Assembly (NCBI GenBank): GCA_032358255.1 | Contig: JAULBX010028160.1 | Coordinates: forward strand, 124,001-188,000 | Length of the DNA: 64,000 nt | DNA from: Heterotrichella gracilis | Lineage: Eukaryota > Sar > Xanthophyceae > Tribonematales > Xanthonemataceae | Direction of reading: 5' to 3' | Shown: in pieces, positions 283 through 63,920 of the stretch | How the letters are laid out: every line of letters starts with the position of its first letter | Numbering within the stretch: position 1 is the stretch's first letter | Position numbers and translations under genes: made by a program | Notes under the pieces: generated by a model | Database searches by the model: none | What the model was told of the DNA's origin: nothing | What the model saw: only the letters and a program-made list of their open reading frames with translations

Positions 283-1124
283 GTGTTGCCTTGAGCGATC
301 GTTTGGAGGTGGTTGTCACAGGGGTTGAGCCATATGGGTCATAGCCGTTGTCTCGTGAGTAGCCATCTTCAGGCCCATGCTGCTTCAGCTTGCGGTTGTG
401 CACCCTGCAATAGCGCGTCAGCACTCGCAAAGTACATATATAAACCAACGAAATCGAGGTCAATACAACATGCCCTGCCCTTGCACACCTTGGTTGGCTC
501 GGCAGGGTCCGCATATGGGTCAAAGGGCTTAGGGATTAGGGTTCAACTAGGGGTCGCCAGGTGCTGCGCCTGGTGTGTACTATGGTTAGTAGCCACCATT
601 GTGGGTCGTAGGGTTTAGGGTTCAGCTTCTCCTTCAGCACGGCCAGTGTGGGGGTCGCCGGGTGCTGCACCTGGTGTGCAACGTGGTGAGACCCTAAACC
701 CTGAATTAGCCATCATGTGGGTCATGCTGCGCCCGGTGTGTAAAATGGTGAAACCCTACATCCTAAACTAGCCCACCACATGGGTTATACTACTTCACCT
801 TGCGGCTGTGCACCCTGCCAGGTGAGTGGTTGTTAAACCCTAAACCCTAAAGCAGCCACCATATGGGCCATACTGCTTCAGCTTACGGCTGTGCACCCTG
901 CCCAGGTGGGGACTAATAGTCCTGCTCGAAATGGAACCCTATACCCTAAAGCGTGTAGGTTGCGACAGAACAGGGCAGTTGCAGCATGCTCTAGGGTTGC
1001 TTTCCTAGCCTTTCCAGCCTTAGATTTCTAGAGCCTACCTGGTGGGTTCGACTGCGCCCTGGAGCTCCACCCCGGAAGCCAGGGCTGCAAACCCAACCAG
1101 CAACAGCAAAGCTCGCGTCGCCAT
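1..1124 (-). CDS. secreted PKPS-repeat (hydroxyproline-rich type) protein, 5' part
   Basis: This is a two-exon reconstruction. Exon 1 (1124-1039) starts with a signal peptide, [18 protein letters not shown], and ends in phase 2 at a CAG|GTAGGC donor. Exon 2 begins at 404 after a TTGCAG acceptor. The phases match, joining EPTR to [10 protein letters not shown]. Exon 2 then reads through a Gly/Tyr/Asp linker (YDPYGSTP) into an uninterrupted array of Pro-Lys-Pro-Ser/Thr units that runs off the left edge, so the 3' end is missing. Such SP/PK-rich blocks are typical of hydroxyproline-rich cell-wall or extracellular-matrix glycoproteins of green algae (pherophorin and related linkers), so secretion and a wall or matrix role are inferred. 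The C-terminal domain that would name the family is not visible. Intron 1 (1038-405) holds decayed copies of the exon 2 start. About 163 codons lie in the window. Confidence 0.72.
786..905 (-). repeat. decayed copies of PKPS-gene exon 2 start in intron 1
   Basis: Two minus-strand segments (about 827-786 and 905-866) repeat the acceptor CAG followed by GGTGCACAGCCGCAAG and the next ~25 bases of exon 2. The first copy has an in-frame TAG (AAG GTG AAG TAG). The second reads on as [14 protein letters not shown] before a CCCTAAA-type stretch. Further fragments of the same block lie at about 535-600, 640-690 and 710-760. They are unlikely to be used as exons because the copy at 404 joins directly into the long PKPS frame. 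Confidence 0.65.
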
Positions 1125-2886
1125 CGGAGGGTGGTGGCGGGGCTCTAGGTGTAGGAGGTAGAGTGGGTGGTCTGGGGGTTACGACGCAGACTTCGCCTGA
1201 TATTCAGGACCTCTGCCTGTGGCAAGAGGGCAAGGGGAGTGTAAGCAAGTGAGCACAAGTTGGCGGTTGGTCTCGTAAAGGGGTGGTGGCGTTGAGTGTA
1301 AGGAGGGCATTTTGCCACTACTACGACTTTGCCAAGCACGAGTACTCATGAATACAGTCCATGTGCGCATGCCAAACTGGCAGTACGTGCACTGCAGACC
1401 GTGGCAAGCTGTTAGCAGCGCCATCCCACCGTCACGAAAGTTTCTCACCTGTTAACGGGTTGCCTGCGTTTGCAAGACCGCAGATGGATCAAACGCAGAT
1501 ATCGAGTGGGGCGGGACAGCTGGCAGCATGCCACAGCCCAAACGGCAACCTTTCTTGTCCAGTCTCTGTGGGTTGTCCAGAAAGTGGAAATGGAGTGGCT
1601 GCCAAAGGACCAAACTGCATGGGTTCCCTTTGCACCCCAACCCGCCACCTACTGACGCCACCACAAGGGTGAATGCAGCCGCTAGCGAATATTCCCCGAC
1701 GGTTTAGCGCTCAGCCCAAGTTGGGGCCTTAAAAAACCCTAGAAACCCTATCAGGCCAAAGGATGCGCCGCAGTGCAACCGTTGCAGTGCACTGTGGGGA
1801 GCAGCAGTGCTAAGCACGGGTGTAGTGTACCGTACCTGCTGATAATTTGCTAGACAGCGTCGAATCTCAAGGGCTTTTTTTTGCCTCTGAGGGGTGTAAC
1901 TAAGTTAACTTAATTACAACTTGGCCCCCCAACTACGCCTCTGTGCGTTCCCTTTCTTTCTTTCTTTCTTTCTTAAATTCCACCAGCTGCCAGCCGTGAC
2001 AGACACACGCTGACTTGGCTGTTGCAGGTTGTGGTGCCTAGAGATGCCTAAAACCCTTGCCAGACTCTGCCAGTGGGGCAAAAAATCACAAGTTCGAAGT
2101 GATGACCGTCCCCACGGTGGGGAAAAGGTTACAGTTATCGCAGTTAAAAGGTCAATGGACAAAGCTGGCTTTGGGTGGCTGCTGACCGGTGCTGGAACCC
2201 TTACCCCAATCTGTGACACAATCATCCACTGACCTTTAACAAATGCATGGCTGCAAGAAGAATACAACCTTCTTGGTGGTCCCCTTGGTCCCTGGGACTT
2301 GGGAAAGTTTCTTGGTGGTCCCCTTGGCGCCATGGAATGGCATGCGCGGAGCGTTTGGATCCTGCAATAATGCCCTAAGTGGGCCACTGGCCAGTGCTAG
2401 TTGAGTGAAGATGTTGGTAAGCTTGCACAACAGAACATAAGATGCTGTATTCTTCATCCAAAGCTCAGGTTGTTGTTTTATGCAGAGTAGATTTTGGTCA
2501 ATTCCCATGCCACCCCCGTTCGCAATTCCTAAAGTGCCCCCCTTCTTACAAGTTGACTAAAAACTTTGCAAGCGACAAGTTTCCTGGGACTGACAGAAAG
2601 AGCCAGCCGGCACGCATCCTTGTGATAGAACACTGCAATCCTGCTTCTCCTTCGCCGTCTGTACAGCTGGATACCTGCTGCGCGTTCAACCCTTGACCAA
2701 ACCCCCGGCATCACCGTCTATACTTTCAATCTTGGTCGTCACACGGCGGGAAAGGCTTTCAACCGCTGTGCATACATATGCAATAGCAACGCTTTCTATT
2801 CATGGGGCAGAATGACGTGTTTTGGTCTGAATGTGGCGCCCTAGCGGTACCATCGCGCAACCGGTGATTCAGCACTGGCAGCAACC
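1125..2886. other. intergenic region between divergent genes
   Basis: This interval separates the PKPS gene (leftward) from CDC27 (rightward) and must contain both promoters. I found no ORF with recognisable protein content. It holds a CTTT microsatellite at 1951-1974 and a short direct repeat of TTGGTGGTCCCCTTGG near 2271-2290 and 2312-2327. No TATA box or operator could be assigned with confidence. Confidence 0.6.
1951..1974. repeat. CTTT microsatellite
   Basis: About six perfect tandem CTTT units lie between the two divergent genes. This is a simple sequence repeat with no evident function. Confidence 0.9.
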
Positions 2887-8800: not shown

Positions 8801-11800
8801 ACGCGCGGGCGCTGCGCTACTTTGGAATGGCAAGGGAGGTGGACGCGCGCAGGCTGGAGGTGAGTGGAGTGTGTGGTGGTGGTGCGTGTGTGGTGGTGGT
8901 GGTGGGGGGAGGGCGGCGGCGAGTTGGAATCGTGGGGTGATGGTGATGGTGGGGTGTGGGTGGGTGTATTTCCGGTGCTGTGGACGGCGTTGGGCTGCGT
9001 TGGCTAGGAGAGCGCGCAGGCTGGAGGTGGTTGTTGTTGTTGGTGGTGGTGCAGCTTACTAACCATACCCTAAACCCTGACCCTAAACCCCCACCCACCC
9101 CCGCAGGACCTTGACACCACCTCCACCTGCCTGTGGCACCTTCGGAGGGAGGTTGACCTGTCCTCACTGGCCCAGGAGGCGCTGGCGCTGGACAGGCTTG
9201 CGCCCCAGGCCTGGTGCGCCATGGGCAACTGCTTCAGCCTCCAAAAGGTGGGTGGGTGGTGGTGGTGGCGGTGGGGATTACGGTTTTGCACCAGGCCATG
9301 AGGGGGGTGGAGCGTATTGTGGCGGTGGTGGTGGGTGATGCGGGTGGGCAGGGCCTTCCTTAGCTCCACGAGGCGCCTGCACTCGACTGCCTGGTGCGCC
9401 ATGGGCAACTGCTTCAACCTGCAAAAGGTGGGCGGGTGGGGTGGGGGACTGCGGGTATGAACAAGCTCAACATCAAGGCGGTGGGGGGTTGGAGCATGTG
9501 TTGGCGGTGGTGATGCCAGGACCCCTGCTATACCAAGGCATCCACGCCCTCCCCTGCATCACCACCGGTGGAACCCCTGCTATACCAACGCATCCACGCT
9601 GTACGGCCCTAATGTTCACACCCCTGAAACCCTTCCACCCCAGAACCTCAATTACCAAGCTCCCTAGAAATCGTATATAATACCCTACCTAGAAACCTTG
9701 CGTAATGCCCTACGCTATCCGCAGGAGCACGAGCATGCGCTGCGGTTCTTCCAGCGCGCGCTCCAGCTTGACCCCTGCTACACATACGCGTACACACTGT
9801 GCGGCCACGAGTACCTGGCGGCGGACGACTTCGACAAGGCGATCGCATGCTACCGCAATGCGATCCGGGTGGATCCTAGGCACTACAATGCATGGTGCGG
9901 GTTGGTGGTGGCGGGGGGCGTGTGCTGTGGGTGGGGCGCCTTTTGCATCTAAATTTCCTCTGTGTGCATTTGAAGTTAACGTGGTAAAAGTTGAAGTCTT
10001 AAGGAAGGATGAAGGGTAAAGCGTGTATGGGGAGTTGATGGTGGTGTCGTGCATGCCATACAAGCAGCCATGGTATATGTACTCTCAAGGACGCCATGGT
10101 ATCGTGGTCGGGGCTGCAAAACTCTTGTCAAGGGTTTCCATTCTCGACTGTAAACCCTGAACCCCGTGCTCTGCAGGTATGGCATGGGCCTGGTGGTGTA
10201 CCGCCAAGAAAAGTACGTGGCTGCTGAAAAGTACTTCCGCAAGAGCCTGGAGCTGAATGAGCGCTCCTCGGTGCTGCGCTGCTATCTGGGCATGGCGCTG
10301 GCTAAGCAGGGGAGGGCAGGGGAGGCATTGGAAGCGCTGGAGCTGGCGATACAGGTGGGGGGCGGCGGTGGTGCCTGCGGCGGTGGTGGTGGGATGGTGG
10401 TTGCCGCGGTGGTGGTGGTGGTGGGCATGGCGCTGGCCAAGCAGGGGAGGCTCTGGAGGCTCTGGAGCTGGCGATGCAGGTGTGGTGGTGGTGGTGGAGC
10501 GCAGTGGACAGGGATGGTGATAGTTATGGCAGCCAGCTGTCGAGGACGGGCATGGATTGTGTGGCGAGTGCGTAGCCTGAACCTTTACCATGATCAGCAT
10601 AAGCTTATGATTGAACCTTGCCATCGTTGCAAATATACCATTTTTTTATTGTAAGTGGAGGGCAGGTGAGGCGCTGGAAACACTGGAGCTTGCAATGGAG
10701 GCGGGTAGCAATACAGGCACAGGCAATTCAATGCAGAATCATGCTGACCCCTAATCTACCCCTTACCCCCGGTCCTTGGCCCTGCTTGGAACCCCCTCCC
10801 CCTCCCCCTTTTTGCAGGCCGATGCGCGCAACCCCCTTGCCAAGTTTGAGAAGGCGCAGGTGCTGCTGGGCCAGGACCGCCACCTGGATGCGTTGCAGCA
10901 GCTGCAGCAACTACGGGTGGGTGTGGGCAGTGGAGGAAAGGGGGGAAGGGGGGTGCTCACTTGGCTGTTATGGGGTTTGGGGATTAGGGTTAGGATTTAC
11001 AATTAGGGTTTAGGGTAGGTGCTGCTGCGGTAGGACCGCCACCTGGAGGCGCTGCAGCAGCTGCAGCAACTACGGGTGGGTGTGGGCAGTGGGGGAAGGG
11101 GGGGAAAGGGGGAAAGGGGGGTGCAGCACGTGGCTGTTATGGGGTTCAGGGATTAGGGTTAGAATTTACAATTAGGGTTTGGGGTAACAACGGGTGGATG
11201 TGGGGGGTGGGGGGAAGGGGCGGAGGGGAGGGTGCATCATTTGGGTGTTTTGTGGGGTAAAGGTAGGGTGTAGGGTAGGTGCGCTGCAGCAGCTACCAGT
11301 GGTGGGTGGTGGTGGGGTGGGCTGGCCAGCACAGCCACCCACATTTGCACCCCACCCAACTCAGCCAACACAGGCCAACCTGATTCCCCCCACAAACATA
11401 ATCACCCCGCTCCTTTTCTCGAGGACATCGCCCCCAAGGAGGCCAGCGTGTACCTGCGCATGGGCCGTACCAGCAAGATGCTGCACTGGCTTACCCTGTG
11501 CACACCACCACCACCACCACCACCCACAGGCCAACCTGATTCCCCCCACCCACCTACTCACTCCGATCTTGACTCCCCCAGGACATCGCGCCCAAGGAGG
11601 CCAGCATGTACCTGCTCATGGGACGCACCAGCAAGATGCTGCACACCCCGTGAACACCCCCAACCACCCCCGTCACCAGGCATCTCCCAATCCAATGCCC
11701 GTGCTTGACGACAGTACCCCCCATTCCCCCCAGGACATCGCGCCCAAGGAAGCCAGCGTGTACCTGCTCATGGGGCGCATCAGCAAGAAGCTGCACATGA

Positions 11801-18043: not shown

Positions 18044-21000
18044 ATGGGCAGGAGAAAGCACCCGAAGAGGGTGAAGAAAGGGGTTGCCGCCAAACCCACC
18101 CAGCCATCCGAGGAGGAACGGCGGGATCTGGACACGCTCCACCTCATCAACGACCTGCTCGACGCGCAGCCTGTGAGTCATGGCATGGCAATATCATATG
18201 CATGCATGCATGCATTGAACAGCCCTTTATAGTCACTCCCTTTGGGAATAACTATATGTATGCATTGGACATTGGACGCCACCTTTTACACCGGCCTTTG
18301 GTATAGGTAAAACCTGAGGCCTGGCTTGGACCAGGCACTTGCCTAGGCATGTCCCGTATGCCAAACACGAGCGCATTGCAAGATGGCCTGGGAAGGCCAC
18401 GCATAATGACTGGCGCGCGCCTGGGAGAACAGGCATTGGGTCCCCCACGGCGGCATCAGGCTGTCCACAGTTAAGGTGTCTTCAGTTTAGCTGTTTGCAA
18501 TGTGCAAATATGCTGGCGAGTGTCGTCAGCTTGTATTCCTTAGGCGTTGTTCGCCCTTTGGTGGTATCCGCCAGAGGCCGACCAGCGCGCTGTGTGTGAA
18601 GCGCTGCCTGTGGGTGCGAGACACATGCGGACTGACTACAAGTACACCGACTTTCAACCAAGGGCCAGGTTCCTGGGTGTGCACCCAGGCACACTAAAAC
18701 GCTGGTTTAGGGTTTGGGGTTGACAGTGTTATGTTGTGTTTGCGCTACGTATGTCTCGTCTGCCTGTGGGTTCTTGCATAGGGGACCACTGAGGGCACGC
18801 GTGATCAGAAGCGTGCACAGCACTGGGGATGGATAACCAATGCGAGCCTTGCATACTGCTGACCACAGCATGCATGGGTACTCACACGTGCATGGGTAAG
18901 GGTGTACACACCCGGTGTCCAGTTGGGCGAAATAGGCTGTTAGAGCACCAGCACCCACACCCAGCACCAGCACCCCTGTTGGAGCCAATACGCCACATTA
19001 AGGGCCTCGGTTGGTAATATACCAGGCGGTGCACTGCACTGGTGGCCCCACAGGTCCCTTGGTGCATACGAAGGCATCCCCGCTTCATAGTTTTCTTAGT
19101 AGGATTTGTTCTATAAATACTCAATCCCATTGTGACCCAGCTTGCTACCGCCACCGTCCCAACCCCTACTTGTGAACAAACAGACAAATCCTCATTCCTC
19201 ACTCAGCGACTGAAAACGTCCCCTTTCACATGATTTCCAGGTTGACACCGCTCAGCTGCGCAAGATAGCAACCGTCAGAGGGCTGGTCAACAATGAGGTG
19301 GGGGTGGGGTGGAGGGTGGGGGGGAATTGGAACGAGAGGGGGGCGTGAGGGGGTGGAAGCCGGCTTCAGGAGTGCGCAAACGAGCCATTTCTAGGGCCGT
19401 GAACAGTGTAACGTGAGGCAACGCGTGTGTAGAAGGTTGTAAACAGTGTAATTTGGGGTAATTTCAGGGCGCTGAGTGACTTGCCACCCGGCGGCATCGA
19501 CTTGAACGCAAGTATGTCGTGGAGGGCGCAATTGCATGGCTGGGTTTGGTGGCCCCTAGCAGCCTCCCTAGTTCTTGGCTACTCACCCGAGGCTGGCTGC
19601 CACAAAGTTGGCCCCAAACCCCACACCCTAAACCCAAAGTTGCTGGGGACGCTTGTACCGTAACAGTCTAGTATGCACCACCCAAAAACCTACAGCCCAA
19701 ACCCTAAACCCTCAACATGAACCCTGTGTGGTGCAGCGGCGGACGCGGGTGTGGCCCCTGCTGCTGGGCATAGATGGCGCCAAGGGTTTAGGGTATGAGG
19801 AGGCGAGCCAAGGGGAGCACAGGGATAGCAGTACTGTGGAGTGCGATGTGGCAAGGTCGCTCTGGGCGTTCACGCAAGGTAAGCCACATGGTTTAGGGTG
19901 TGGGGTGTACGGTTTAGGGCATCCTAAGCTGGCAAGACAATGGGATGAAAACCTTGCTTTTGTTGAGAAATTACTTACCCTAAACCCTGCATTATAATTC
20001 CTGGAACTTCCTTTAAATGCACGCAGGGTGGTCAGGGGAGAAACTCTAAACCCTGAACCGTACCCCCTAAACCTTGCATTTATTTCACGCAGGGTGGTCA
20101 GATGAGAAGCGGGACGCGCAGCGGCAAGCACTCCAGCGCCTGCTGACAGCCGTGGTGTGCGCCAACCAGCCGCACGTGCATTACTACCAGGTGGGTGCAG
20201 GGTTGGAGTACCTGGCCTGCTGTTTCAAGCAATGGAGGGCCTCGGGACTGGTCGGGCTTTCGGTTTTCTGGTGGGTGTTTCTAGCGTTTTTTTGGAGCAT
20301 TGGCGGGGTTGGGTGAGGCTTGCCATGCACTCCAGCGCCTGCAGACAGCGGTGGTGTGTGCCAACCAGCCGCACGTGCACTACTACCAGGTGGGTGCGGG
20401 GCCCAGGGTATCTCAGGCAAACAAAGGGCCTAGGGTCTGTAGGGCTTTGGGTTTTGGTCTCCTTGCAGCTATAGCGTTTTTGGAGCGTCGTCTGGGTGTC
20501 GCTTGGCCAGCGCCAGGCACTCCAGCGCCTGCTGACAGCTGTGGTGTGTGCCAACCAGCCGCACGTGCACTACTACCAGGTGGGTGCGAGGGCGGGGTAT
20601 CTGGCAACAAAGGGCCTAGGGTCTGTAGGGCTTTGGGTTTTGGTGTCTTTGCAGATAATTATGTGCAGAGATGGTAATTGCGTTTTTGGAGCGTCGTCTG
20701 GGTGTCGCTTGGCCAGTGCCGGGCACTCCAGCGCCTGCCGCCAGCCGTGGTGTGGGTGTACCACCCGCACATGCACAATTACCAGGCGGGTGCAGGAGGC
20801 CAGCTTAGACTTATTCATTTGCTGTTTCCCCAGTGTTTCCCCAGTGGTTTTGGGGCTGGTTTTCGCCAGCGGCATGGACTCCAACGCCTGCTGGCAGCAG
20901 GAAGTAGCGGTTTAGCCACATTGCCACATGCCACCTGCAGGACTGCACCTTGTAATTCCCTGAAATAAACCCTAACCCCTCCTAGAAAAGCTGAAGATAT

Positions 21001-23416
21001 TCTCTCAAATCTACTCACCACCTCTTACATCCACAGGGCCTGCATGATGTTGCCAGCGTGCTGCTCTTGTCGGTGGGCGAGGCGCGCGCCTACCCCCTGC
21101 TCAGCTACATGGCCACATGCCACCTGCGGGATTGCCCCCTGAACAAAATACTCTGGAAAAATCCCACCCCTCTCCCAGAAAACGTCAAAGAATTCTCCTG
21201 AAATCTGCTCACTATTCCTTTCATGCCCAGGGCCTGCATGATGTGGCGAGCGTGCTGCTCTTGTCGGTGGGCGAGGCCAGGGCCTATCCCCTGCTCAGTC
21301 ATATGGCTACATGCCACCTGCGGGACTGCACCCGCCCCGACCTGGATGCTGTGCTGCAGCTGCTGGGGCTGATCATGCCCATACTGGAGGAGGTGCGGGG
21401 TGTGGTGGTGGTGGGAAAGGGAAGGGGAGTGTGTGTGTACTTTTGTGTAATGGGTAATGATGGCGGCGGCAGCGGCGACGGCGGTGTGGGTGTGTGTGTG
21501 GGGGTGTTCATTCCATGTTGCATGGATGCTGTGCTGCAGCCGCTGGGGCTGATCATGCCCATACTGGAGGAGGTGAGTGGGGATGGGTGGGTGGTGTGGG
21601 TGGTGGTAGTAGGTGGGTGGGTGGGTGGGTGCATACCATGTCGCATGCATGCGGTGCTATCACACGATTTGCATGCAATCCTCCAAAATTTCGGAAAAAA
21701 GAGACAACAGTACAATAAAAGCCCAAGTGCAAAAATAGCAGCAAAATGAGTGCCAAAAATGAACAGCAACATGCAAAACAGAGTAAAACTTGATTTGATT
21801 GCCCCATCCCCCCGCAGTGGGACCTGGAGCTGCACGCCTGCATCGACGCCAGCAGCATCCCCCCCACTTTGCGCTGAGCTGGTACAATATTACTCCTAAA
21901 ATGTCCTTATAAAAGTAAGAAAAAGCGCCAACAGTCCACCAAAAATAAACAGCAAAATGAGCACCAAAATAAATACAACATATGAGCAATTGATGAATAC
22001 CTGATTGTGTTTCCTCCCCCCCTTGCAGTGCGATCCACAACTCCATGCCTGCATCGACGCCAGCGGCATCCCCCCCTACTTTGCGCTCAGCTGGTACATC
22101 ACCTGGTTTGCACACAACGAGGCCAGCCTGCCCTGCCTGGCGCGCCTCTTTGACTTCTTCATGGCTTCGCACCCCCTCATGCCGCTGTACGCAGCGGCGG
22201 TGGTCATGCGGGTATGGGAATCAGTGTTGCAACCACGGCTATCTGCAGCACAGTAAGATCCATTGTTTGCAATTCTGAGCTGGCAATCACAGTTAAGCTT
22301 AGTATAGCAATTGCAAGATGTGCCTGGTTTAACTTCTTCTGGCGTCGCACCCGCTCATGCCGCTGTATGCAGCTGCCGTGGTCGTGCGGGTAAGGCGTTC
22401 ACCAAGGGGTGACAGTTGCAGTCTTGAGTTGCAATTTGGGGCACATGACCCTCATCCTTACCACCACCACCACCCACCGCACACCACCCACTCACCCCAC
22501 CCAACACCATCCGCAGGCCTCCCGCGAGACTGTGCTTGCTTGCGATCAGGATCCCTCAGAGATCCACCGCACCCTCAACAACCTGGCTATTCTGGCAAAC
22601 ATACCGGGGGGAGCGGACCAGCTGGCACTGGAGTCGGCTATGCTGTTCAGGCGGCGCCAGCCGCAGGCGCTGCTGGGCCTGCCCAGGAGTTTGAGCCCCT
22701 GGTGTGTGGTTTGGTGGACATGGGGAAATGCAGATAATGTTAGTGGGACAACACCAAATGCTGAAAAATGTTGCTTTTTGTGGGCGCCCGCCTCAGTTCA
22801 GGCATTGGCAGCCACGGACATTGAGGGGGCCATGCGAAGCACACAGACATGCAGAAAAATTAAAGTAATGTTGTACCTCCAACCCATGAAATAAATTTGG
22901 AAGGGGTTGCCCCTATGGCTAGTGGTTCCAGTAGCACATACCTCTTGCTGCCCAGCGCTGCATTATTGCATCACTACTGACACCCAGCATGTGCGCACGT
23001 GCTCAGCACCTTTCGAGCAACCATCAAGGGATGGCCATTGGCATATGCCATGACAGTGCCAGTGCTGCCAACTAGCTTGCTGGCCAGTGCTTGCTGCAAT
23101 GCTGACACCCAACCCTAAACCTTGAACCTAAACGTATCACCTCTGTGTGTGCAGCACCTCTCGAGCCACCATCAAGGATGGCCACTGGCATGTGCCGGAC
23201 GACGACCCGCCTTGCCCGGGGCCTAGGGACCGCGCCACACACCACCCCCTGCCGCACCACAAACAGCTGCTCTTCAGAAAGGGCAGGCAACGGCCGCTGG
23301 CGCGCATCACCGCAGTGGCTTCCCTTGTGTCGCTGGGTGCCATCACACTTGCTGCCATGATGTACAGCCAGAGCCACCGCATGGGCGCGGAGTGGCAGGT
23401 GGGGCTGTGGCCTTAG
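18044..23416 (+). CDS. TBC1D20: TBC1D20/Gyp8-type Rab GTPase-activating protein
   Basis: Eight exons join in phase: 18044-18172, 19241-19297, 19737-19878, 20093-20190, 21231-21392, 22029-22211, 22517-22701, 23155-23416 (405 residues; human TBC1D20 is 403). The family stimulates GTP hydrolysis by Rab1/Rab18-type GTPases at the ER-Golgi. TBC hallmarks are present: RVWPLLLG, the arginine finger in ECDVAR (about R102) and the glutamine finger in HYYQG (about Q142). FALSWYITWFAHN and LFDFFMASHPLMPLYAA match the family. The C terminus has the expected single membrane helix (ARITAVASLVSLGAITLAA) followed by a short tail (GAEWQVGLWP), indicating a tail-anchored ER protein. An upstream in-frame ATG at 17996 is possible, but 18044 gives a compact basic start (MGRRKHPKRVKK). 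Exon 3 contains a TTTAGGG motif in coding sequence (19787-19793). Confidence 0.92.
20020..20905 (+). repeat. serial partial copies of TBC exon 4
   Basis: An acceptor-side fragment (about 20020-20040) precedes the true exon (20093-20190). Downstream copies carry the 3' part ALQRLLTAVVCANQPHVHYYQ and mostly the GTGGGT donor: 20324-20395, 20515-20586, 20722-20790 (donor mutated to GCGGGT) and the short 20868-20905. Decay increases with distance from the exon. Confidence 0.92.
20918..22394 (+). repeat. partial copies of TBC exons 5 and 6
   Basis: Exon 5 (true 21231-21392) has acceptor-side copies at 21030-21135 (nearly intact, GLHDVASVLLLSVGEARAYP, but no donor) and a fragment near 20918-20952. 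It has a donor-side copy at 21520-21575 (LLGLIMPILEE-like plus GTGAGT). Exon 6 (true 22029-22211) has an acceptor-side copy at 21818-21880, which stops at TGA, and a donor-side copy at 22333-22394. Confidence 0.88.
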
Positions 23417-29268: not shown

Positions 29269-30473
29269 CATGCGGGGGTGGTGGGGAGTGGGGAGTGGGA
29301 GGGGTGCCAGCAGCACCTCTGCTGCGTATGTGGGAGGGTGGGAGGGGAGCGCGGACGGGGGCCGTGCTTCCTACGGCGTAGCAAAATTATATATGTCACC
29401 ATGTGTACACCACAGCGGGGTTTGGGGAGGGGAGGCGGGGGGTGGAGGGGCCGGGGGAAGGGGAGTGGCTATGGGATTGCATTGCTGCTGTTGCAATGGG
29501 GCTAGCCTAAGGCAGGGCATGCCAAGGGGTGGGACGGGGGCTCAGAACTTTTTCAATGGATATGGCCTTGCATGTGGGTACAACTGAGGTCCAGCCATCG
29601 TGGCGGCCAGTCAGCTTGCACGCATGGTTTATGGCTGATTTTGAACCTGAATGCATTCCAGCCATCGTGTGACACCACTGGTAGGGCTTGCTGCCTGGGG
29701 CAAAGCAGTGAAGGCTACGACTCACTGTACCATGTACTAGTATCATTTTGCAGAATGCATCAGGCGAATCAGTGAGACATCAACAGTCGCAGTGATACTT
29801 TGGCGGCAAGCTTGAAGGTGCACCATGCATGCCCCATGCTCTGCCATGAATGTATTTTGTGTTTACGTGCACGGCCGTGCACGGCTTGTACTGGGCACGG
29901 CTTGCCAACTTGGCAATTGGGATTCAGTCCCAATTGGGAAATTCCAATTGGGACTAAGTGCCACGTGCCCAGTACGAGTCTCTTCCTGCAGGCATGCCAT
30001 GGAAGCTTTCGAGCGTTTGACAATGTTACACGATGTAGTAATGATTACAATGTATTGCTACAAATTGCAGTTAATTAAGCACCTGCATGCATCGATGTGC
30101 ATTTAATTTAGTCCAGACTCTGAGTTAGCTTGAAGGTTGCAATCGAGTATTACTAAGCCCTAGTTGGTGGCATTCAGTCCGTCCAAGGGCCCAATCCTTC
30201 CACATATAGCACAAATCCCAGTTGGATTGAGGAGATTCGTTAACACCAGTCCATTGTATGGACTCCTATTCACTCACACCACCACAAGCGGCTGCATGCT
30301 CCTCCCCAGCCACTACGGCACAAGCGCATTGCCTTCCAGCCTTGGTCCCAGCACCGCCAACACAACCGAGCGCAACCAGGCATATCCCCCAACATATTCT
30401 GTTGGCGGTGTGGGCCCTCACATGTGACGTAAATTCCATAAACACTGCGGAAAGCGCACTTTCCCATGCCCCA
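29269..30473. other. intergenic region between convergent genes
   Basis: This interval holds the 3' flanks of SWC4 and the aminopeptidase gene. It includes a G-rich stretch (29270-29470) and a strong inverted repeat at 29888-29975. No coding signal was recognised. Confidence 0.55.
29888..29975. repeat. inverted repeat / potential long hairpin
   Basis: The outer arms GTACTGGGCACG (29888-29899) and CGTGCCCAGTAC (29964-29975) are perfect reverse complements. Between them lie CCCAATTGGG and CCAATTGG palindromes. Immediately upstream is a GTGCACGGCCGTGCAC palindrome. The repeat could be a small MITE or a transcription-terminating hairpin between convergent genes. Confidence 0.75.
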
Positions 30474-39677: not shown

Positions 39678-39857
39678 GGCGCCAGCTGGGCAGCAGGTCG
39701 GCGGGAGATGGTGGGAGGTACACCTGCGCCGCACACACTTTGGCATGTACGCCGAATTTGATCACCAGGCTGGGGTTGAAGGACAATTGTGCAAAGATGG
39801 ATCGGCTCACACTGCGCTATTCCGGGCCCAAGTCGGGCATTAAGCGGTGAGGCGCTG
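38881..39857 (+). repeat. partial copies of uS15 exons 3 and 4
   Basis: A donor-side copy of exon 3 (GACACTGGCTCAACTGAGG) lies at 38881-38914. Acceptor-side copies of exon 4 lie at 39153-39206 and 39294-39354. Past the stop, 39719-39857 repeats the 3' end of exon 4, including the terminal stop, with a frameshift. Confidence 0.9.
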
Positions 39858-41090: not shown

Positions 41091-41094
41091 CCAG

Positions 41095-41530
41095 GGTCTC
41101 TAGAACGTGCCATACATGCGCGCATCGTCCTCGTCTCGTGGCTATCTAGAAAGGAGCGCATCGCCCTCCGTGCTCACCATGCTGGATACCACATTGGGCG
41201 ATGGGGGGCCTGTTCCTTGCGCGAAAAAGTGTGCTGCTGACTAGAACATGCCAGACATGCGAGCACAGTCTCGGCTGAGAAAGAGCTCGCTACCGCGCCC
41301 AGGCAAACCCATAATCGCAAAACCCAGTCTGGCAATGGGCGACGATGCAGATGCGCTTCTCCGCACCATAAATGGGATGACTACGCTGCAATTCAAGGGT
41401 GCCAGGATAGCTCTGAATGGTTGGGGCTGCGCCAGAGTAGCCCAACCTGGCTCTAATACATGCCATACATGCGCGCGTAGTCCTCGGGTGAGAAGGAGCG
41501 CCCGTGCTGGGCCATGATGGGTACCCGGTA
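41095..41530 (-). repeat. three copies of the membrane-protein last exon beyond its stop
   Basis: On the minus strand the 3' end of the last exon (family-free motif EDYARMYGM plus stop) recurs at about 41530-41450, 41300-41235 and 41170-41095, progressively decayed. All lie downstream of the true stop at 41647, so they are outside any intron of the reconstructed gene. Confidence 0.85.
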
Positions 41531-41646
41531 CGTTATTCCTGCAGTTGACCAATGGGTGGCGAAGAGGAGTGCTGCCAACTGCCTCAGCGGGTGGAGATGA
41601 TGTACATTTGCAGATTGCTTGGCAGCCGTTGCAGCACCCAGGGTGC

Positions 41647-43426
41647 CTAGAACATGCCGTACATGCGCGCGTAGTCCTCGGGTGAGAAGGAGCGCCCGTG
41701 TTCAGCCATGATGGCGGTTTGCAGCTTGCGCTTCACCTCCTGGAACCTGGCAGCAGCACAGCAATGTTACATATAAAACCCATTATTGAAATGAGCAGAA
41801 ACTCCTCCTTGAGGGCATTCAACGTGGTCTGAAATGGATATACACGTGACGTGTCCTGGTGTACCTTGCATCCATTACTGCATCTATCAATGCATCTATT
41901 ACTTGCTAGTGGCGGCATTTGGGCACCTGCTTTCTAGAGACTACGTGTGGTGTCATGCTGATCGTGATGGCAGCTGTTGGTTGTGCAGGTTGTTCTGGGG
42001 TGTGGTTGTCAAAGTGGTGATGATGGACGTTGTGGTAAATGTGATTGCCGTGGTGTAATAGCTTGCAATGACTGTGCATTATACTAGGCGTGTATACCTC
42101 AATACACACCGCTGCGCGGGCCTCCAACTCAGCCACAGTGCAGCAAGGCCTGCACAGGTAGGATGCAAAACCCCGATGCAGGTCAACCACAGTGCGCATG
42201 CCCACCAGCACTCTTAGGTGGAGCGCACCCACCACTGCAGTGCGTGCCCCATCACAGCGTGCGTGCCCCTAAAACCCTATACTAGGGTTTATAGTCACTC
42301 ACTTCTGGGTGGATCTCCAGGTCAGCCACAGTGCAGCAAAGCCCACCAGCATGAAGATATACACGAACATGACCTGCAGCACAGTGCACCTGCGTCAGGT
42401 TGGAGACTTCTGCTAGCACCCTGCACCTATAATAACGCCCTTGTAGAGTATACACGGAGCACCAATAATGACACCCTGGTGCACCCTGCTGTGGTCAGCA
42501 ATGTGAGCTTGTGGCTAGCCAAGCACTTGCATCTTGACCAGGATCCCCAGGCTGGCATTTGGCAGACAGGTTTGTCAGAACAGACGTGTGCGTTCACTGC
42601 CATGAAATTTAGGGTACAGGTGCAGTCTGTGGCTGTCAAAATTGGAATTTTGTATAAGCGATAGTGCCCTGGCTGTAAAGGTGGCGCGTGGCGGGCGTTG
42701 CTCTTTTAGTTTTAGGGCTTAGGGTTTACCGGCGTACCTGGTGTAGTGAGCGCTTTGCCGCCTCGCCATAGCGCTCGCCGAGCCACTGCAGCAAAAAGCC
42801 TGTCCCTTCCCCGGGGGTGAGCGTATGGTGGAACAAGCGGTCGGCGTCCCAGTTGTGGTGCTCCATGGCGAAGGGGTGCTTGCCTCAGGAGCAGATGTCT
42901 TGTGGACTCGTGCGATTCCGACTACCGCTCATGCTAAACTTGCCACAACCAAGTGCCTGGGACCATGAGGGAGGCTAGTCAACACAAGAAAATGGGGTGC
43001 TTGCCACCGTTAGCATGCACTGCCAGGGAGCGCGTGTGAAACAGTCGGTGAGATCCTAAGTTTGCCCACAGGCCAGTCAACACGAGTTGGTGTGCATGCC
43101 AACTTTGATAATGCATGCATATGTACAATGCATGCATATAATGATGCGTGCACCCAAACACGTTGCGACAAGCATACGCAGGTAGGAGCACGGTAGCCTT
43201 GATACGGCACCGATTCGCGTGCTATGAGTACACCCTCCACACATCTGCAGTGCAAGCCTGGCTTGTTCGGGGTTGCCGATAAGCGCATGCCAAGCCTGCC
43301 AGCGTTGGCGACCATACCTGAAGATGACGTCACGATGCCCACCACAGTACGCCTGAAGTATGGCTGGCGTTGGCTAGAGGGCGCATGCCGTGAGGGGGGC
43401 AGTGGGTGCCGGGCGAGAGGAGGCAA
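41647..43426 (-). CDS. small single-pass membrane protein, unrecognised
   Basis: Four exons in phase: 43426-43318 (least certain), 42883-42738, 42373-42303, 41746-41647 (about 141 residues). Exon 2 gives GKHPFAMEHHNWDADRLFHH and GFLLQWLGERYGEAAKRSL. Exon 3 encodes one transmembrane helix (VMFVYIFMLVGFAALWLTW). The tail is basic then polar (KFQEVKRKLQTAIMAEHGR, ending ARMYGMF). Topology looks like a membrane-anchored protein with a charged C terminus. If exon 1 is wrong, the ATG at 42866 gives a 99-residue protein; the exon 2 start is duplicated upstream with ~12 bases 5' of that ATG, which favours the longer form. No family could be named. Confidence 0.55.
42100..42235 (-). repeat. copies of the membrane-protein exon 3 end
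   Basis: Two decayed donor-side copies of the exon 3 3' half (TTTGCTGCACTGTGGCTGACC region) lie on the minus strand at about 42235-42160 and 42160-42105, in the last intron. Confidence 0.7.
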
Positions 43427-44125: not shown

Positions 44126-44155
44126 TCAACCTTGAACCCCTAAACCCTAAGCAGC

Positions 44156-47715: not shown

Positions 47716-47785
47716 AACCAATGCTGCATTGGTGGTTTACCACGTGGCACGAGCTGGGTATCAAGCATACCCCGTGTAAGGATCT

Positions 47786-49413: not shown

Positions 49414-52400
49414 ATGGGAGTCCGGGAGTATGCCAACTATCTCTTGGTGGTGGCTGTGGGCACAGTCCTCACTATCTGGCTGAGTGAGATCACAAGGTGA
49501 GGAACCTGCTGAAGCTTCTGCTCACACAGTGACTGTGTGGCAACACCTGAACCCATGTAGCCTGTCAATTGATAGCAGTTGCACGTCCACAGACTAAAGT
49601 TCATTGCGTGGGGCACTATTGGTGGCTACAGCCCTCTGGGACCCACGCGCCATGCAGTGCATGCTGCGTACACTTGCTTGCTTACCACACAGGCTGTGTG
49701 GACACTCCTGTACTGTCTAGTCTTCCTTTGATAGGTACCACTTGCAGTTACGCAGACAGCACTGCACTGCGTGTGGCCATTATATAACGTGCTTTGAGTG
49801 AAGCCACTATTGGTGCTGCAGCCACCTGGGCATGCGCCATACTGCTGGTACTTTTGCTTGTAGTATATCTATGTTTCTGAGCTGCAGTTGTGTCCCTGTT
49901 GCAGACCCGTGCTGCTGCTCGTGGGCAATGTCACGGTGGACACATTCCCACACACTGGCAAGAACGCAACTGTAAGTGAAGGCACACTTCCCGCTCCTGT
50001 AAATCGACCGCCCCCCTGCATAACCATGTTACAGCTGTGAGCTGTGCTGGTCTGGACTAGGCAATTGTGGCTCAGTGCATTGTACACTGTTCGGTGGTGT
50101 AGCACTTGAGCCTGTTACGTTCACTCTGTTGGCGCAGGGTGGCGCAATCTCCTATGCGGCAGCTGTTGCAAAGGCGTATGGGGTGCATGCGTGCGTTGTC
50201 ACAGGTATGGTGGCGAGCTTTTATCTTTTGCCTGTGAATGGACGTGCCACTGTTCAGGGCTTCTACCACAGCCAATTCCCTGTTGTAGTCCAGCATTACC
50301 AGTTGATTGTCTACAATGCAAGTACACTGTGACTGGTCCATAATATGAAATGAGAACCTCCCCATGCGCTTGCCGCAGCCAACCACTGTTGTGTGTGTGT
50401 GTGCAGCGGTCGCGCAGGATGCAGACTTGTCGGTATTCCAGGGCCACGACCTGATTGTGGTGCCATCCAACTCCACGCTCACCTTTGAGCACACATACAC
50501 ATGGTGGGGTAAGTGCAGTACTGGCGCCGGCGCTGGACAAACTTAGGGTTTAGAAGCTAGGGTTGAGGGGCAAAACGCTCCGTCTGCTCCTTCCCGGCAC
50601 GCATTGTCCAAAATGGCCCATGGTCGTTGGTTCACTGTGGCCGCACACCACCCGCACCACCCACACCATCCGCACCCATACCCACGCTCACACCCACCCA
50701 CCCAACCACCTCAGGCAACAAGCGGAAGCTGCGCATCACCGCCCGGCCCAACGTGACCCTCACCATGGACCACGTGCCCCACCGGTGCCGGAGAGCGCAC
50801 ATCGTGCTGCTGGGGCCCCTGGCACCCACCGACATGGACTGCGCCTCCTTTGCAACATACAAGCCAAGTGAGTGTGGCCCCCTCTGCGTACACATCCACA
50901 GTGCTTCGCCTTTCTTACCGGGTTGGTATATAACGCCAAATGGGGTTTCTTAATGCATGAGAAAATGCATTTGTCCGCATGACCCAACCAGCCTTGCACA
51001 TGTGTAAGAATTTTGCAGCCTTATATCTAACCGTGCTAACCCCTGGCTCCTTGTGGATTTCCCAGATTGGCTTGAGCGCGTGCTTGGCTTCCACCAGCAC
51101 ATTGGCCTCATGGCCCAGGGGCTGCAGCGGGACGGGGATGCGGCCACGGGCAGGGTGTACTTCTTCCCAGACCCGTCACAGGCAAGCGGCTGGGGTGGCG
51201 GGGGGGGGGGGGGGGGGGGGTTGGCNNNNNNNNNNCCCCCCACATTTGCACTAACGGAAGGAATAATCACGGGAAGGCATAATAAATGAGACAATACAAA
51301 AACAATAAATGGCGGACGTTCCCAAATAAATGCGTAAAAAAGTCCAATCCAGCTGTGTGTTCTGCAAGCGCCAAATAAGTTTGTACTAATTGTCAACCCC
51401 GCTCGTCTGTTGCTTCCAGGCTCTGATGAGCTCCCTGGGCCCCAGCACCACCGTGTTCCTGTCTGATGTGGAGACAGACGCGTGGGCCAAGGGGAGGGAG
51501 GAGGAGGTGGGGGCACGGTCGGCGCGGCTGCTCATCACGCGGGGGGAGATGGGGGCGCAAGAGCGGAAAGGGAACTGGACAGCCATGCACTCGCCAGTGA
51601 AGGTGAGGCGCCATGAGCTGCCCTTGGCGAAAAACCAAGAAAATTAGACAGCATTGAAATAAAGGGGCGACACCTGGCAACACCTTTGTCACCGCGGATG
51701 TGCTGCAAATCCTATGTACTGATACCTAAACCGTATATCCTGCTGCATTGGTGAAGGTGAAGGCCATCGACACCAATGGCGCAGGGGCGACAGCCTAAAC
51801 CCTCAAGTCCTAGCGCTACACCCTAGCTTCAAAAGGTTATCCCTGCCTTGCAGGTGAAGGTCATTAACACCGAACTGCGCTGGGACACCTTCGCGCACCA
51901 CATCATGCTGTAAACCCTACACCCTGATTTAGAACTCCTGCCCTAAAACCCTAAATCCCACTTTGCAGGTGAAGGCCACTGATACCAATGGCGCGGGCGA
52001 CACCTTCGCCACCGCTTACATGCTGGCGCTGGCAAGGGGGGAGCGGGACCCTGCGGCGGTGGCCAACTGGGCGGGCAGCAGGGCGGTCATGCAGCCGCAG
52101 GTGGGGGTGGGGGTGAAGGCTGGGGTGGTGGTGGTTTGCATGTGCATGCGGGTGTGGGACGCGGCTGGGGTGCTGTGGCAATGACAGATGAGATGGGGAC
52201 TGGGGCGGTGGGTAGCAAATGCTGCCAGTCGTGGCTGTAGCATAGGTATGAGCTGGCAAGGGGGGAGCGGGGTCCTGGGTGGTGGTCAACTGGGCAGGCA
52301 GCAGGGCGGTCATGCAGCCGCAGGTGGGGGTGGGGGGTGAAGGGTACAATGGCGCACACGTGTGTGAAAGTCGGCTGGGGTGCCCCCGCAGGGTACAGAG

Positions 52401-55870: not shown

Positions 55871-55881
55871 TGCCTATACAC

Positions 55882-59765: not shown

Positions 59766-62700
59766 TCAGGCGAAATTTGAGCTATCTAACGTGATGACGT
59801 TGAGCGAGTCTGCTTCCCGCCCCTTGAGCGCTCGTTGCAGCACCCACCGCAGCAAGTTGATGACCACCCAACCCCCAAGCATCACATATGCGGTACACGT
59901 GAACAGCGCCTTGGGCCCATGTGTACCGTAGATCAGCCCGCCTGCAAGCCCGCCCAGCCCATACCCCAGCCCGCTGTACATGGTCGTGAACATCCCCTGG
60001 GAGGTGGCCTCCATACCTGTAGGGGGGGAAAGCACTGCCAGCTATGCGCTCTGACTTCGAGAAGCCCTGGGTGCAGGGTTTCCCTCTTTGCACAACTACC
60101 GCCACCCACCACCACACTAGGGACGCACATGTATGCATGCAGCGTGTGCACATGCATCTATCCTGGAATTGTACGGTCCACTGCGCATGCAGCAAGCATG
60201 CCACTGACCACCAGGGGTTAAGGGTTTAGGGTTTTGACTCACTTGGTGCTGCGCTTCCAGCTTCATTGACCCAGCAGAGGAGCATGTGTGCCACCTTTTA
60301 CCATTTGCAGTTAGAAATTGAAAGTTTGGGCTCACCTGGAGGGGTGATGCGGCTGCTTTTCACCGTCCCAGCCGCCCACGCGCATGCAAATGTCTGCCCA
60401 TGCAGCAGCTCCACCCGCAACACCAGCCAGACATTTCCCCCGTGGGGCAGCGTGGCATGTTCGCACTTTCTACCACTGGCCTAACGCTTTTGTTTGGGCT
60501 CACCTGGCGGGGCGATGCGGCTGCTTTTCACCGTCCCAGCCGCCCACGCGCACGCAAACGTCAGCCCATGTAATAGCTCCACCGGCAGCACAAACCACAC
60601 GTTCCCCCATGACGACAGCGTGGCATAGCAGGCGCATCGCGCCACGTAGGCCAGCAGCACCAGGTTGAGTATGGCGTTGATGCCAAACATGTTGATGAGG
60701 CGGCCGCTGAGGGCAAACAGGGGCACCTCTGAGGAGCATGCGATGAAGATGGTCATGCCCATCAGCGCCTCGGAACCGCCTGCGGTGGGACGGTGGGGGG
60801 CTGGAGTCAGTGATTCTGCTATTTATTGTAATCTAGTATGGTTAAGGTACTGTCCGTTTGCTCAGTGGCCAAGAAAGGGAACCTGAGATGGTGGCAGGTT
60901 GCCCTAAACCCTGAGGGCAAACAGGGGCACCTCTGAGGAGCATGCGATGAAGATGGTCATGCCCTCAGAGCCGCCTGCGGAGGGACGGTGGGGTGTAGAG
61001 TGGCAGAGTAAGAGAGGTGGGAACGGCGGCAGGTTGATGAGGTCTGTGCATGTGGTCATGCCCCTGAGCAACTCGGCCAGCCTGCCATGCCATGTGGTGC
61101 TGGCATTGGCATCGCATGGCGCGACCATGAGGGCCCTCCTTGGCATGTCGTTCTCCTTCATTTCCCCCCCAATTCACTCAATGCAGTGCAAGCACATTGA
61201 GGAGGAGAGGCCGAAAAGAGAAGCTTCTCCTTTCCATTACCTAGCTGGTCCAGGTACAGAAACAGGTAGCCCTCAATGACCCCAATGCCGTATCCCATGA
61301 GGATTGCCGTCAGGAAGAAAGGCGCCGCCTCCGGGTTGGAGAACAGCAGCCTCAACCCCTGAATGATGTTGGGGTGGACCGAGTCGTCGGCAGCCGGGGG
61401 CTGCTGCTGGCCACCTGTTGGAACACAACCACAGTGAATAATAACACTAATCAATGTAAATCTAGTTGACGCACTGGGATTGAGATCATGATTTTGATTG
61501 CGTGATGTTGGGGTGGACCAAGTTGTCCGCAGGCGGGGGCTGCTGCTGGGCACCTGTTGAAACACAGCCACGACCACGGTTGATGATACACTACCTAAGT
61601 GTCCACTGTTAATGTACTGCAATTATCAACTGCACTGGGATCGTGATAACAATTGCAGCCCACATTTGCGCCTGCAATTGCACATGCATGTAAAGCAGTG
61701 CTCACAATCCCTCTAAAGTCAAGGGGTACTAGACAAGTCAACCCCTTAAATATTGACCACCAATCACCTGCTGAAAGGCCGGCTTGCGGCTTTGCTACCC
61801 CATTGGCCTGCGGTTGACTACCATGCTCCCCAGCCAGCAGTGGCGTGGTGAGCGCCTGCTGTGATTCCCGTGCAGGCCCACTATGGTTCGCCACCGCCAA
61901 GTCTGCATGGCCATTGGCGGGCGAACTATGGCCCACTACTGCCAGGTCAGCATGGCCGTTGGTGTGCGCATCAGCAGCAGGATCGGCGTCGGCGGCGGCG
62001 GTTTGCCCCGCCAGTTTCTGTTGCAGCCGTGCCGCGTGGCGCTCATACAGCGGCTGGAAGCTGATCATGAGCGAGGGTATGAAGGTGAGGAGGCAGAAAA
62101 CAAAGTAGCACACGAACGCGTAGTAGATGTTGTAGCGGTCGATGACGCCCCCCACCAGCGCGCTGCAGATGCCCCACCCGGCCGCGCCCCACAGCCGCTG
62201 CTGGCCGTAGTCCGAGTCCTGGAGGTGGGGGGGATGTAGGCGTCACAGCCAGACTCCTGACATGTTGTAACTGGCGCCTTGTGACTGACAGGGTGTAAAT
62301 GACTAGCACCCAACATGCAATGCTGTCTGATGCGATGCTATTATGGCTGTGTAGCTGAATGCATGAATGATATAACTTGTTAACTTCCAGGTTGCAAGTA
62401 GTGGACATGCAAGGCTGTCTGCTATTTTGGTCACATCGCTGGGATGTAGTCGTTGAAGTGCATTTCATGTTGCATGCATGGCATGGCTGTTGCGTGCATG
62501 TCAAGGCATGAACCACATTCAAACCACCTGTAACTGTCTGGCTCACAACCCTCCTGAGGCAGATGCAGGGTGTATCAGCACAACACGATTCCCGCCGACA
62601 GGCCACCAAACATGCCGTCCCCACCTCCCACCCTTTTCCACCGCAGCACTGCTCCTTGGTATCAGCCATCACATCGTAGCCACCGCAAACCCTAACCCCA

Positions 62701-63920
62701 AACCCTAGCCTCCTACCTTTTTTATTGACGCGAGAACGGCGGTGTCAGCCATGATCATGGTAGGCTCCAGCATCGTAGTCACCCCAAACCCTAACCCTAA
62801 GCCCTAAGCCCTAACCCCAAACCCTAATCTCCTATATTCTTTATTGACGCGAGCACTGCAGTGTCAGCCATGATCACGGCGGGCACCGATATCATAGCCA
62901 CCGCAAACCCTAACCCTAAATCCTAGCCTCCTACCTTTTTTATTGAAGCCAGCACGGCAGTGTCAGCCATGAACATGGCGGGCACCAGCATCGTAGTCAC
63001 CCCAAACCCTAACCCTAAGCCCTAAGCCCTAACCCCAAACCCTAATCTCCCACCTTCTTTATTGAAGCCAGCACGGCAGTGTCAGCCATAATCATGGTTG
63101 GCACCGACACCACATCGCAGAACAGAATTATCCCCAGCAGCGCGCCAAAGGCCCGCGCCATAGGCAACGTGAGTGCGAGGCGCGCAAAGGTGGATATGAA
63201 AAGGGTGGTCAGGAAAATGATCCGGTAGGCCTGGAACCGATCGGCCACCATGCTCCATACGCTTCCTGCAGGGACGGGGGAGTAATTGGTATGACGAGAG
63301 GTTATACTTGCAGGCCAGGATTTAGAGTTTAGGGTTTAGGGTTAAACAGCCTTGCAGTGCACGTCTAGGTTGTACAGTGCAGGCCAACACCAACAGCAGT
63401 GCAGTGCAGTGCATGTCCGAAACATCATTCAGCAAGACGTGCAAGCTGGAGGGGGAGTGAATATTGTGATGAGGTTTTCCTGGCAGTGCACGCCAGCAGC
63501 ATCACCCAGTAAGTCACCAGACCGCAGGCGACTTAGTAAGTCTTGACAGTATGTGTCAAGTGGGCCCAGGTGGGGATGAGGGGCGGGTTGGGCTGTGTAG
63601 GCGTTGCATGTAACAGGGGTATTGTGCACCCCCCCAGTTTCCAAGCAGCGACACTGCAGGCTGACACCTGTCCAAAGAGGGCAGGTGTGTGCGGGGTGCG
63701 GGGGTGGCGCGAGTCAACACGGCATCAACCTAGGACCGGAGGGAACAGCCACGTTTAGGGTAAAACCCTAAACCCTACACCCACCTGCCCCAGCTGACAC
63801 CATGGGCCTGATGGCCCCTATAATCCCGATCTGCTCCTTGCTGATCCCCAGGCGAGTGAAGAACAGGTTGGTGTATGGACTCACGCTGGCCTGGGCGCCC
63901 AGGTAGATGAAGTACCATAG
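59766..63920 (-). CDS. MFSD6-like major facilitator superfamily transporter, C-terminal ~499 residues
   Basis: Six exons in phase on the minus strand: 63920-63785, 63265-63054, 62218-61768, 61414-61241, 60779-60504, 60016-59766 (stop). The 5' end lies beyond the right edge. The order of segments fits the MFS_1-like/MFSD6 family: YFIYLGAQASVSPYTNLFF, GIIGAIRPMVSAGAG, GSVWSMVADRFQAYRIIF, a long helix pair ending in IMADTAVLASIKK, the hallmark DSDYGQQRLWGAAGWGI, then about six more helices (FFLTAILMGYGIGVIEGYLF, GMTIFIACSSEVPLFALSG, YVMLGGWVVINLLRWVL). A ~90-residue Ala/His/Gly-rich loop (ADAHTNGHADLA) separates the halves. The substrate is unknown. Introns carry numerous exon copies. Confidence 0.88.
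60333..61560 (-). repeat. partial copies of transporter exons
   Basis: A donor-side copy of the 60779-60504 exon lies at 60455-60333. An acceptor-side copy of its first ~60 bases lies at 60990-60908. An acceptor-side copy of the start of the 61414-61241 exon lies at 61560-61499. Confidence 0.87.
62716..62992 (-). repeat. three donor-side copies of the 63265-63054 transporter exon end
   Basis: Copies of the last ~50 bases of the exon (encoding MADTAVLASIKK) plus its donor lie at 62992-62934, 62890-62829 and 62770-62716. Each is followed by a CACCCCAAACCCTAACCC or CACCGCAAACCCTAACCC spacer, giving a ~105-base higher-order unit. Confidence 0.92.

Follow-up and report, generated by a model that had tools for sequence, protein, structure and literature searches.

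Why should the introns of an alga carry, again and again, worn copies of the exon ends that border them? The question is raised by a 64,000-nucleotide stretch of Heterotrichella gracilis (positions 124001-188000 of contig JAULBX010028160.1, in a genome assembly of 68.5 Mb and 903 contigs), the whole of which is referred to here as the window. An earlier reading, made from the letters alone (the sequence-only reading), held that degenerate copies of exon ends, produced by short tandem duplications across exon-intron junctions, occur in nearly every gene of the window. We find that the copies are real, that they belong to direct, local duplications of bounded size, and that such duplications tend to be denser where the organism's own telomere unit is common. 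The account that we favor, with a probability of about 0.6, is repeated head-to-tail duplication in place of 60- to 240-bp units, filtered by the retention of an intact exon, with staggered-break repair and telomeric addition as the presumed source of the units.

Direct local duplications of bounded size

Comparison of the window with itself by BLAST returned 66 direct high-scoring segment pairs at E<=1e-4. With a fixed search space, 79 direct matches were retrieved, all at offsets of <=600 bp, and no inverted ones; composition-matched controls, made by dinucleotide shuffling within 500-bp blocks, gave no match in any of five shuffles. The same method does detect inverted matches where they exist, for example between light-harvesting paralogues in stretch L027. 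Near inverted matches numbered 0 in the window and 1 in 180.6 kb of other algal sequence.

For comparison, 21 stretches were fetched from elsewhere in the genome, of which L008, L009, and L026 were left out of the algal counts. These three have a GC content of 35-37%, no CpG depletion, long open reading frames, and contigs of ~94-109 kb, and are probably bacterial companions within the assembly. Two extra stretches were added around light-harvesting genes and are therefore not random choices. The algal comparison thus comprises 20 stretches, with 180.6 kb used for block counts and 164.6 kb for a lag scan. In the lag scan, offsets of 60-240 bp account for 70 of 94 segments in the window and for 67 of 73 elsewhere. 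A single segment overall has an offset of 240-300 bp, and the window segments at 300-600 bp, 18 in number, appear to span two or more units. The sequence-only reading was right that the tandem duplications are short, but its figure of 40-150 bp corresponds roughly to the exon part that is still recognizable, the unit itself being mostly 60-240 bp. Offsets peak at 180-220 bp in the window but at 60-120 bp in the other stretches, and a nucleosome-length unit was dropped as a main claim on that ground.

Self-matches at offsets of 60-260 were merged into blocks, giving 43 in the window and 45 in the 180.6 kb of other algal sequence. Their density ranges from 0 to 15.5 per 10 kb among stretches, and the even spread over genes that had been supposed is not borne out. 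No block was found in 8 of the 20 stretches (L006, L011, L012, L014, L016, L017, L025, and L028), even though L012 and L025 hold many coding-like open reading frames.

The copies have a polarized layout, as the sequence-only reading had proposed: the 3' end of an exon with its donor is copied downstream, and an acceptor with the 5' end of its exon is copied upstream. This polarity is confirmed where homology covers the supposed real copy, namely for exons of TBC1D20, DMAP1, ribosomal S15, the M24 peptidase, and PfkB. In the donor-type pair 22149/22328 of TBC1D20, the real exon extends upstream and a structure alignment covers the upstream copy; in the acceptor-type pair 27208/27391 of DMAP1, it is the upstream member that is the copy, and the real exon extends downstream. 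Exon-end copies occur in many genes, by inspection in about 8 of 11 gene regions in place of the at least 11 of 13 claimed earlier; the count of 8 of 11 was made by eye, from no script, and over regions assigned by the analyst, including some without any named exon. The features are as follows; the first gene is one that we take, from its sequence, to be CDC27-like, Pfam having given TPR only.

4018-4112 and 4135-4231, plus strand: CDC27-like gene, exon end with donor and its downstream copy; offset 117.
5058-5156 and 5266-5365, plus strand: CDC27-like gene, exon end and downstream copy; offset 208; 7 synonymous and 0 nonsynonymous differences.
7663-7720 and 7874-7931, plus strand: CDC27-like gene, exon end with donor and copy; offset 211.
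9209..9515, plus strand: CDC27-like gene, exon end with donor and intron; unit 180, the intron part still alignable.
10858..11186, plus strand: CDC27-like gene, plain tandem unit of 159 bp; identity 54/59 in exon and 65/70 in intron; TTAGGGTTTAGGGTA ends the first unit.
11369..11797, plus strand: CDC27-like gene, acceptor with exon start and two upstream copies; real exon start at ~11732 by inspection.
20119..20796, plus strand: TBC1D20-like gene, four-unit array (~195 bp) of exon end, donor, and intron; a breakpoint flank is common to copies 2-4.
22149..22395, plus strand: TBC1D20-like gene, exon end with donor and a downstream copy with a 1-base deletion; offset 179.
26659..26963, plus strand: DMAP1, 3' part of an exon and a diverged downstream copy; offset 209; CCCTAAA a few bases ahead of the copy.
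27208-27304 and 27391-27487, plus strand: DMAP1, copy of acceptor and exon start, then the real exon; CCTAAACCCTAACC lies 8 bases past the breakpoint.
30950..31500, minus strand: M24 aminopeptidase, array of acceptor and exon-start copies with CCCTAA-rich sequence between them.
31560..31817, minus strand: M24 aminopeptidase, exon end with donor and copy; offset 183; 4 synonymous and 0 nonsynonymous differences.
32194..32671, minus strand: M24 aminopeptidase, exon end with donor and two intronic copies.
34026..34612, minus strand: M24 aminopeptidase, exon end and two intronic copies; identity to the exon 56/58 for the farther copy (34026) and 46/52 for the nearer.
39550..39855, plus strand: ribosomal S15, exon end with donor and a frameshifted downstream copy; offset 172.
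41458..41714, minus strand: coding end with stop codon, copied downstream without a splice site (by inspection); offset 194.
52028..52343, plus strand: PfkB kinase, exon end with donor and copy; offset 224.
60324..60626, minus strand: MFS_1-like transporter, exon end with donor and copy; offset 168.
60707..60993, minus strand: MFS_1-like gene, acceptor with exon start and upstream copy; GGTTTAGGG stands directly at the breakpoint.
61364..61571, minus strand: MFS_1-like gene, acceptor with exon start and upstream copy; offset 139.
62673..63107, minus strand: MFS_1-like gene, array of exon end and donor, its units containing degenerate TTAGGG repeats.

Coding segments are enriched in the blocks. 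Self-alignment places 48 of 132 coding-segment edges inside blocks, compared with 27.9 +/- 5.2 by rotation (P 0.003), and 34 of the 43 blocks overlap >=25 nt of coding segment in the assigned gene regions, compared with 19.8 +/- 3.2. A duplication process aimed at junctions is not supported, the coding enrichment being only 1.7-fold (34 versus 19.8), and targeting as a necessity was rejected on this count. By inspection, coding 3' ends with their stop codon are duplicated at 30274/30474 and 41458/41652, and the pair 43839/44252 is exon-interior; with two stop-codon ends and one exon interior among the copies, duplication does not require a splice site. Slower decay of an exon pair of which one half is constrained could be the source of the 1.7-fold enrichment.

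Duplications of this kind recall the Rogers model, in which new introns arise from tandem duplication of exon segments that contain AGGT. The kind of event is the same, and in a potato RdRp gene a tandem duplication across an intron-exon boundary produced a new intron confirmed by RNA (PMC4974935). There, as here, the unit joins the 3' side of an intron to the 5' side of an exon and the copy inherits splice signals; unlike the single RNA-confirmed potato case, the alga has dozens of duplications in 64 kb, on donor as well as acceptor sides, known from DNA. In pairs whose flanks were read, the copies adjoin the edge of an exon that is already there, with its splice site, and do not stand at an offset that would mark out a new intron between two halves of one exon; we take the Rogers model to be quite improbable here.

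Whole units and telomere-like repeats

If whole units were duplicated, the intron beyond the splice consensus should retain homology at the same offset. The junction pairs used for this comparison (31), for substitution ratios (26), and for a frame test (24) were chosen for readable junctions, a choice that tends to select well-kept copies; of the pairs in the 43 window blocks and the 45 blocks elsewhere, many lie outside these sets. Reading frames were set by a codon score trained on the window. Against a null of unrelated pairs, intron homology at the same offset was detected at P<0.05 in 14 of 31 pairs (Fisher combined P 2e-15) and not in the other 17. Whole units, intron included, were therefore duplicated in at least these 14, and short local tandem duplication with one intact exon retained, the core of the sequence-only reading, is supported to that extent. 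An earlier test on 14 pairs of known type had found residual homology in 8 when the intron side was compared and in none when the exon side was (lowest P 0.06), with none on either side in 4 pairs of unclear type; its first pass, with a random-window null, had given a mixed outcome. At 20324/20516, exon (61/63) and intron (67/71) have diverged to a similar degree, as at 10858/11017. Units of similar divergence, together with the flank shared within the TBC1D20 array, are best read as real multistep tandem duplications, and whole-unit duplications would lengthen introns.

Many pairs show a copy, a unique filler, and a second copy, a layout also expected if introners, mobile introns with long target-site duplications, had inserted. 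In the sampled sequence, 51 of 66 fillers have no nonlocal match; the other 15 have matches that, among those listed, are TTTAGGG/AAACCCT-like. The sole filler searched genome-wide, the 153 bp between 7663-7720 and 7874-7931, has a single match, itself. An introner family was rejected, no element being common to the 66 fillers in the sampled sequence, and we consider this origin very improbable. Introners likewise concern growth or gain of algal introns, but some known families have target duplications of 3-9 bp (PMC9860276), and the copies described above are far longer.

The telomere unit of the organism is CCCTAAA, which forms perfect, correctly oriented arrays of five units at contig ends; among the matches listed, for example, C70, C140, and C609 begin with such an array and C460 ends with one. 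Some CCCTAAA arrays are contig-internal, such as that of C640 at 149 kb of 195 kb. A 51-bp minisatellite at window positions 57030-57292 (5 copies, 99% matches) contains degenerate CCCTAA sequence.

The window holds 115 CCCTAA/TTAGGG hexamers in 72 clusters, of which 36 fall in blocks, compared with 15.1 by rotation (P 0.0015). A regional correlation was computed over 27 algal stretches, made up of the 20 comparison stretches and 7 pieces cut from the window. Blocks are denser where hexamers are denser, with a Spearman rho of 0.81 (P 2e-7). When only hexamers outside blocks are counted, rho is 0.61 (P 8e-4), and in the 20 stretches without the window it is 0.65 (P 0.002); six permuted control motifs gave a rho of 0.24, which is not significant.

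Weighing the proposed mechanism

In the mechanism that we propose, segments of 60-240 bp would be duplicated head to tail, repeatedly and on the spot. Where a unit spans a splice junction, splicing would keep the outer, intact exon edge, the protein would be unchanged, and the inner copy would become intron; units that break an exon would be eliminated. Junction-spanning copies would survive as intron growth because splicing can ignore them, and the polarity would arise because one intact exon must remain, with no need for junction targeting. Junction copies would dominate the observed set because intron-only units blur faster. As for the source, a staggered break with both overhangs filled in and then joined would produce direct duplications only, and direct, size-limited units are what such a process would give. 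Some broken ends may gain a few telomere repeats before joining, perhaps with participation of telomerase or CST, and some later exon-to-copy homogenization may explain the unusually well kept exon parts. We infer that the alga combines staggered-break fill-in with telomeric addition.

Several observations weigh against this account. Exon parts are better conserved than intron parts, and in 11 of 31 pairs an exon identity of >=94% goes with an intron homology of P>0.05 (two at 0.054), a combination that simple duplication followed by neutral decay does not give. At 1108/1323 of L018, a stretch with a presumed isopropylmalate synthase gene, 62 of 62 bases match, the flanks cannot be aligned, and the intron P is 0.11. 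The ratio of nonsynonymous to synonymous divergence (dN/dS) between exon and copy is 0.18 over 26 pairs (bootstrap 0.13-0.27), and 0.21 when CpG sites are removed, without correction for transition bias; we guess ~0.3 with it. For a constrained exon and a free copy, ~0.5 is expected by our own reckoning, or somewhat less with transition bias. Within M24 34026..34612, of the two intronic copies the one farther away resembles the exon more closely, an order that contradicts simple stepwise duplication. The breakpoint count leans toward a telomere link, with caveats. A telomere-like hexamer in any register lies within 40 nt of 17 of 45 breakpoints, several of which come from one array and one of which (10858) has no intervening base and was scored as lacking a hexamer; the comparison value is 14% of random window 40-mers, which include coding sequence. 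Splice-side ends of the same intervals, the best control, have such a hexamer in 3 of 21, a weak contrast. L018, densest of all in blocks (15.5 per 10 kb), has only 4.0 hexamers per 10 kb outside them, and telomere-like motifs and duplications may both be commoner in intron-rich regions, confounding the regional link.

Part of this evidence is what would be expected if the tandem duplications were old and their exon parts had been refreshed by gene conversion or re-copying from the real exon, or if exon ends had been freshly inserted into nearby introns by templated synthesis. Under refreshing, the copied tract would stop where intron homology has been lost, and copies would hug splice sites. 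The 11 near-identical pairs, with the L018 example foremost, fit such a history, as does the M24 order of real exon, more diverged copy, and less diverged copy. The 14 pairs with residual intron homology began as whole-unit duplications, however, and by our reasoning conversion alone does not lower dN/dS to 0.18. We regard this explanation as quite possible, its chances lying somewhat short of even. On repeated tandem duplication as we favor it, the well-kept exon parts would call for either ongoing exon-to-copy homogenization or some function that the copies serve.

Such a function might lie in alternative exon ends or in regulated decoy splice sites under selection. The low dN/dS is compatible with it, and so is the retention of the donor GT in 16 of 17 copies and of the acceptor AG in 7 of 7, although these motifs had served to locate the pairs. 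Splicing at the other site would disrupt the reading frame or bring in a stop in 21 of 24 pairs, with in-frame stops met in 19, and would keep an open frame in 3; the useful splice forms suggested by the sequence-only reading are therefore unsupported. Alignment gaps occur in 8 of 26 copies, and dN/dS is much the same in these (0.17) as in the 18 ungapped pairs (0.19). Coding selection on all copies was rejected, as gapped copies show the same ratio, and functional copies appear an unlikely general explanation.

We likewise think it unlikely that the copies are an assembly artefact, in which diverged haplotypes or strains placed in series would make conserved exons look duplicated and diverged introns not. 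Synonymous-rich differences beside diverged introns do resemble a comparison of two functional alleles, and contigs of bacterial appearance occur in the assembly, as does a 10-N gap. That gap (51226-51235) is the only run of N in the window, compared with 43 blocks, and no listed duplication adjoins it. Genome search of three exons returned no second copy except cyclophilin matches of 77% and 71%, and separate haplotigs were rejected for these three. The breakpoint flank shared in the array, the frameshifted copies, and the identical exons beside unrelated introns do not fit an artefact either. False (heterotype) duplications also appear as adjacent partial exon copies; in one account (PMC9516828) they are mostly gap separated and sometimes joined through wrong gap filling, unlike the present copies, which lack N gaps, lack haplotigs for the three exons tested, and share a breakpoint flank.

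Known systems, gene content, and other repeats

The closest parallel for the repair step is fill-in of 3' overhangs by CST-guided Pol alpha-primase, which yields small tandem duplications in mouse and human cells (PMC8355091). Those duplications, like the algal ones, are direct, short, and local, and they form at staggered breaks that are end joined, with telomere fill-in machinery. They differ in that the breaks were engineered with 43-bp overhangs; the algal units reach 240 bp, and their mechanism is our proposal. Direct-only orientation and a bounded unit size, as in duplications of the CST-Pol alpha type, were found in the window and, but for one near inverted match, in the stretches from elsewhere in the genome. 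Telomeric repeats inserted at mammalian double-strand breaks provide a second parallel, with duplications at 6 of 130 rodent and 4 of 25 primate loci (PMC2246262). In those mammals the species' telomere unit sits at sites of breakage, as may be so in the alga, and some loci carry duplications. Those loci are defined by the telomeric insertion, duplication being minor, whereas the algal loci are defined by duplication, with telomere-like sequence near 17 of 45 breakpoints.

A bolder version would place telomere-end machinery (telomerase and fill-in) in everyday staggered-break repair, so that genes grow by 60- to 240-bp units with telomere crumbs and exon-end copies stay intact through homogenization or a splice-site role; we consider this doubtful. 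What is new here is that local duplications are regionally tied to the telomere unit of the organism itself. No report of such a duplication density or of a telomere link was found among the listed titles and abstracts of open-licence literature, which is no proof of absence; the search covered intron gain and tandem duplication, introners, interstitial telomeric sequences, splice-site duplication and nucleosomes, and patch-mediated or single-strand-break duplications. If our account holds, the genome offers a directly countable record of intron growth, in which bounded, direct-only duplication can be seen at many ages with coding sequence as the filter. The regional duplication-telomere link would make it possible to test how break repair and telomere enzymes bear on gene structure. 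For annotation the copies are a warning, as near-perfect decoy splice sites stand 94-224 bp from many real ones.

A Pfam search with 20 single exons of the window returned a family at E<=0.01 for 11 and none for 9. The families are TPR, RabGAP-TBC (two exons, one under the curated cutoff), the SANT domain of DMAP1, M24 peptidase, ribosomal S15, cyclophilin, DUF2358, PfkB, and MFS_1-like (two exons); the DMAP1 and TBC1D20 exons also match solved structures. Among the comparison stretches, L020 presumably holds an SNF2-like gene, a name that, as for L018, was given from sequence. The chlorophyll a/b-binding family has 43 matches in the genome, which marks the organism as an alga; a search with the RuBisCO large-subunit family matched nothing. 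Algal stretches checked for composition have a GC content of 52-60% and a CpG observed/expected ratio of 0.46-0.66. An excess of TG/CA accompanies the CpG depletion (observed/expected, ~0.5) in these stretches, which suggests CpG methylation.

Two further repeats lie near the start of the window. Positions 1-312 form an 84-bp tandem array of a 12-base periodic repeat (TTTGGCGATGGC), with no recognized exon end there. Relatives of positions 1000-1500 (72-81% identity) recur every ~5 kb upstream of the window, at contig positions 108872-125500.

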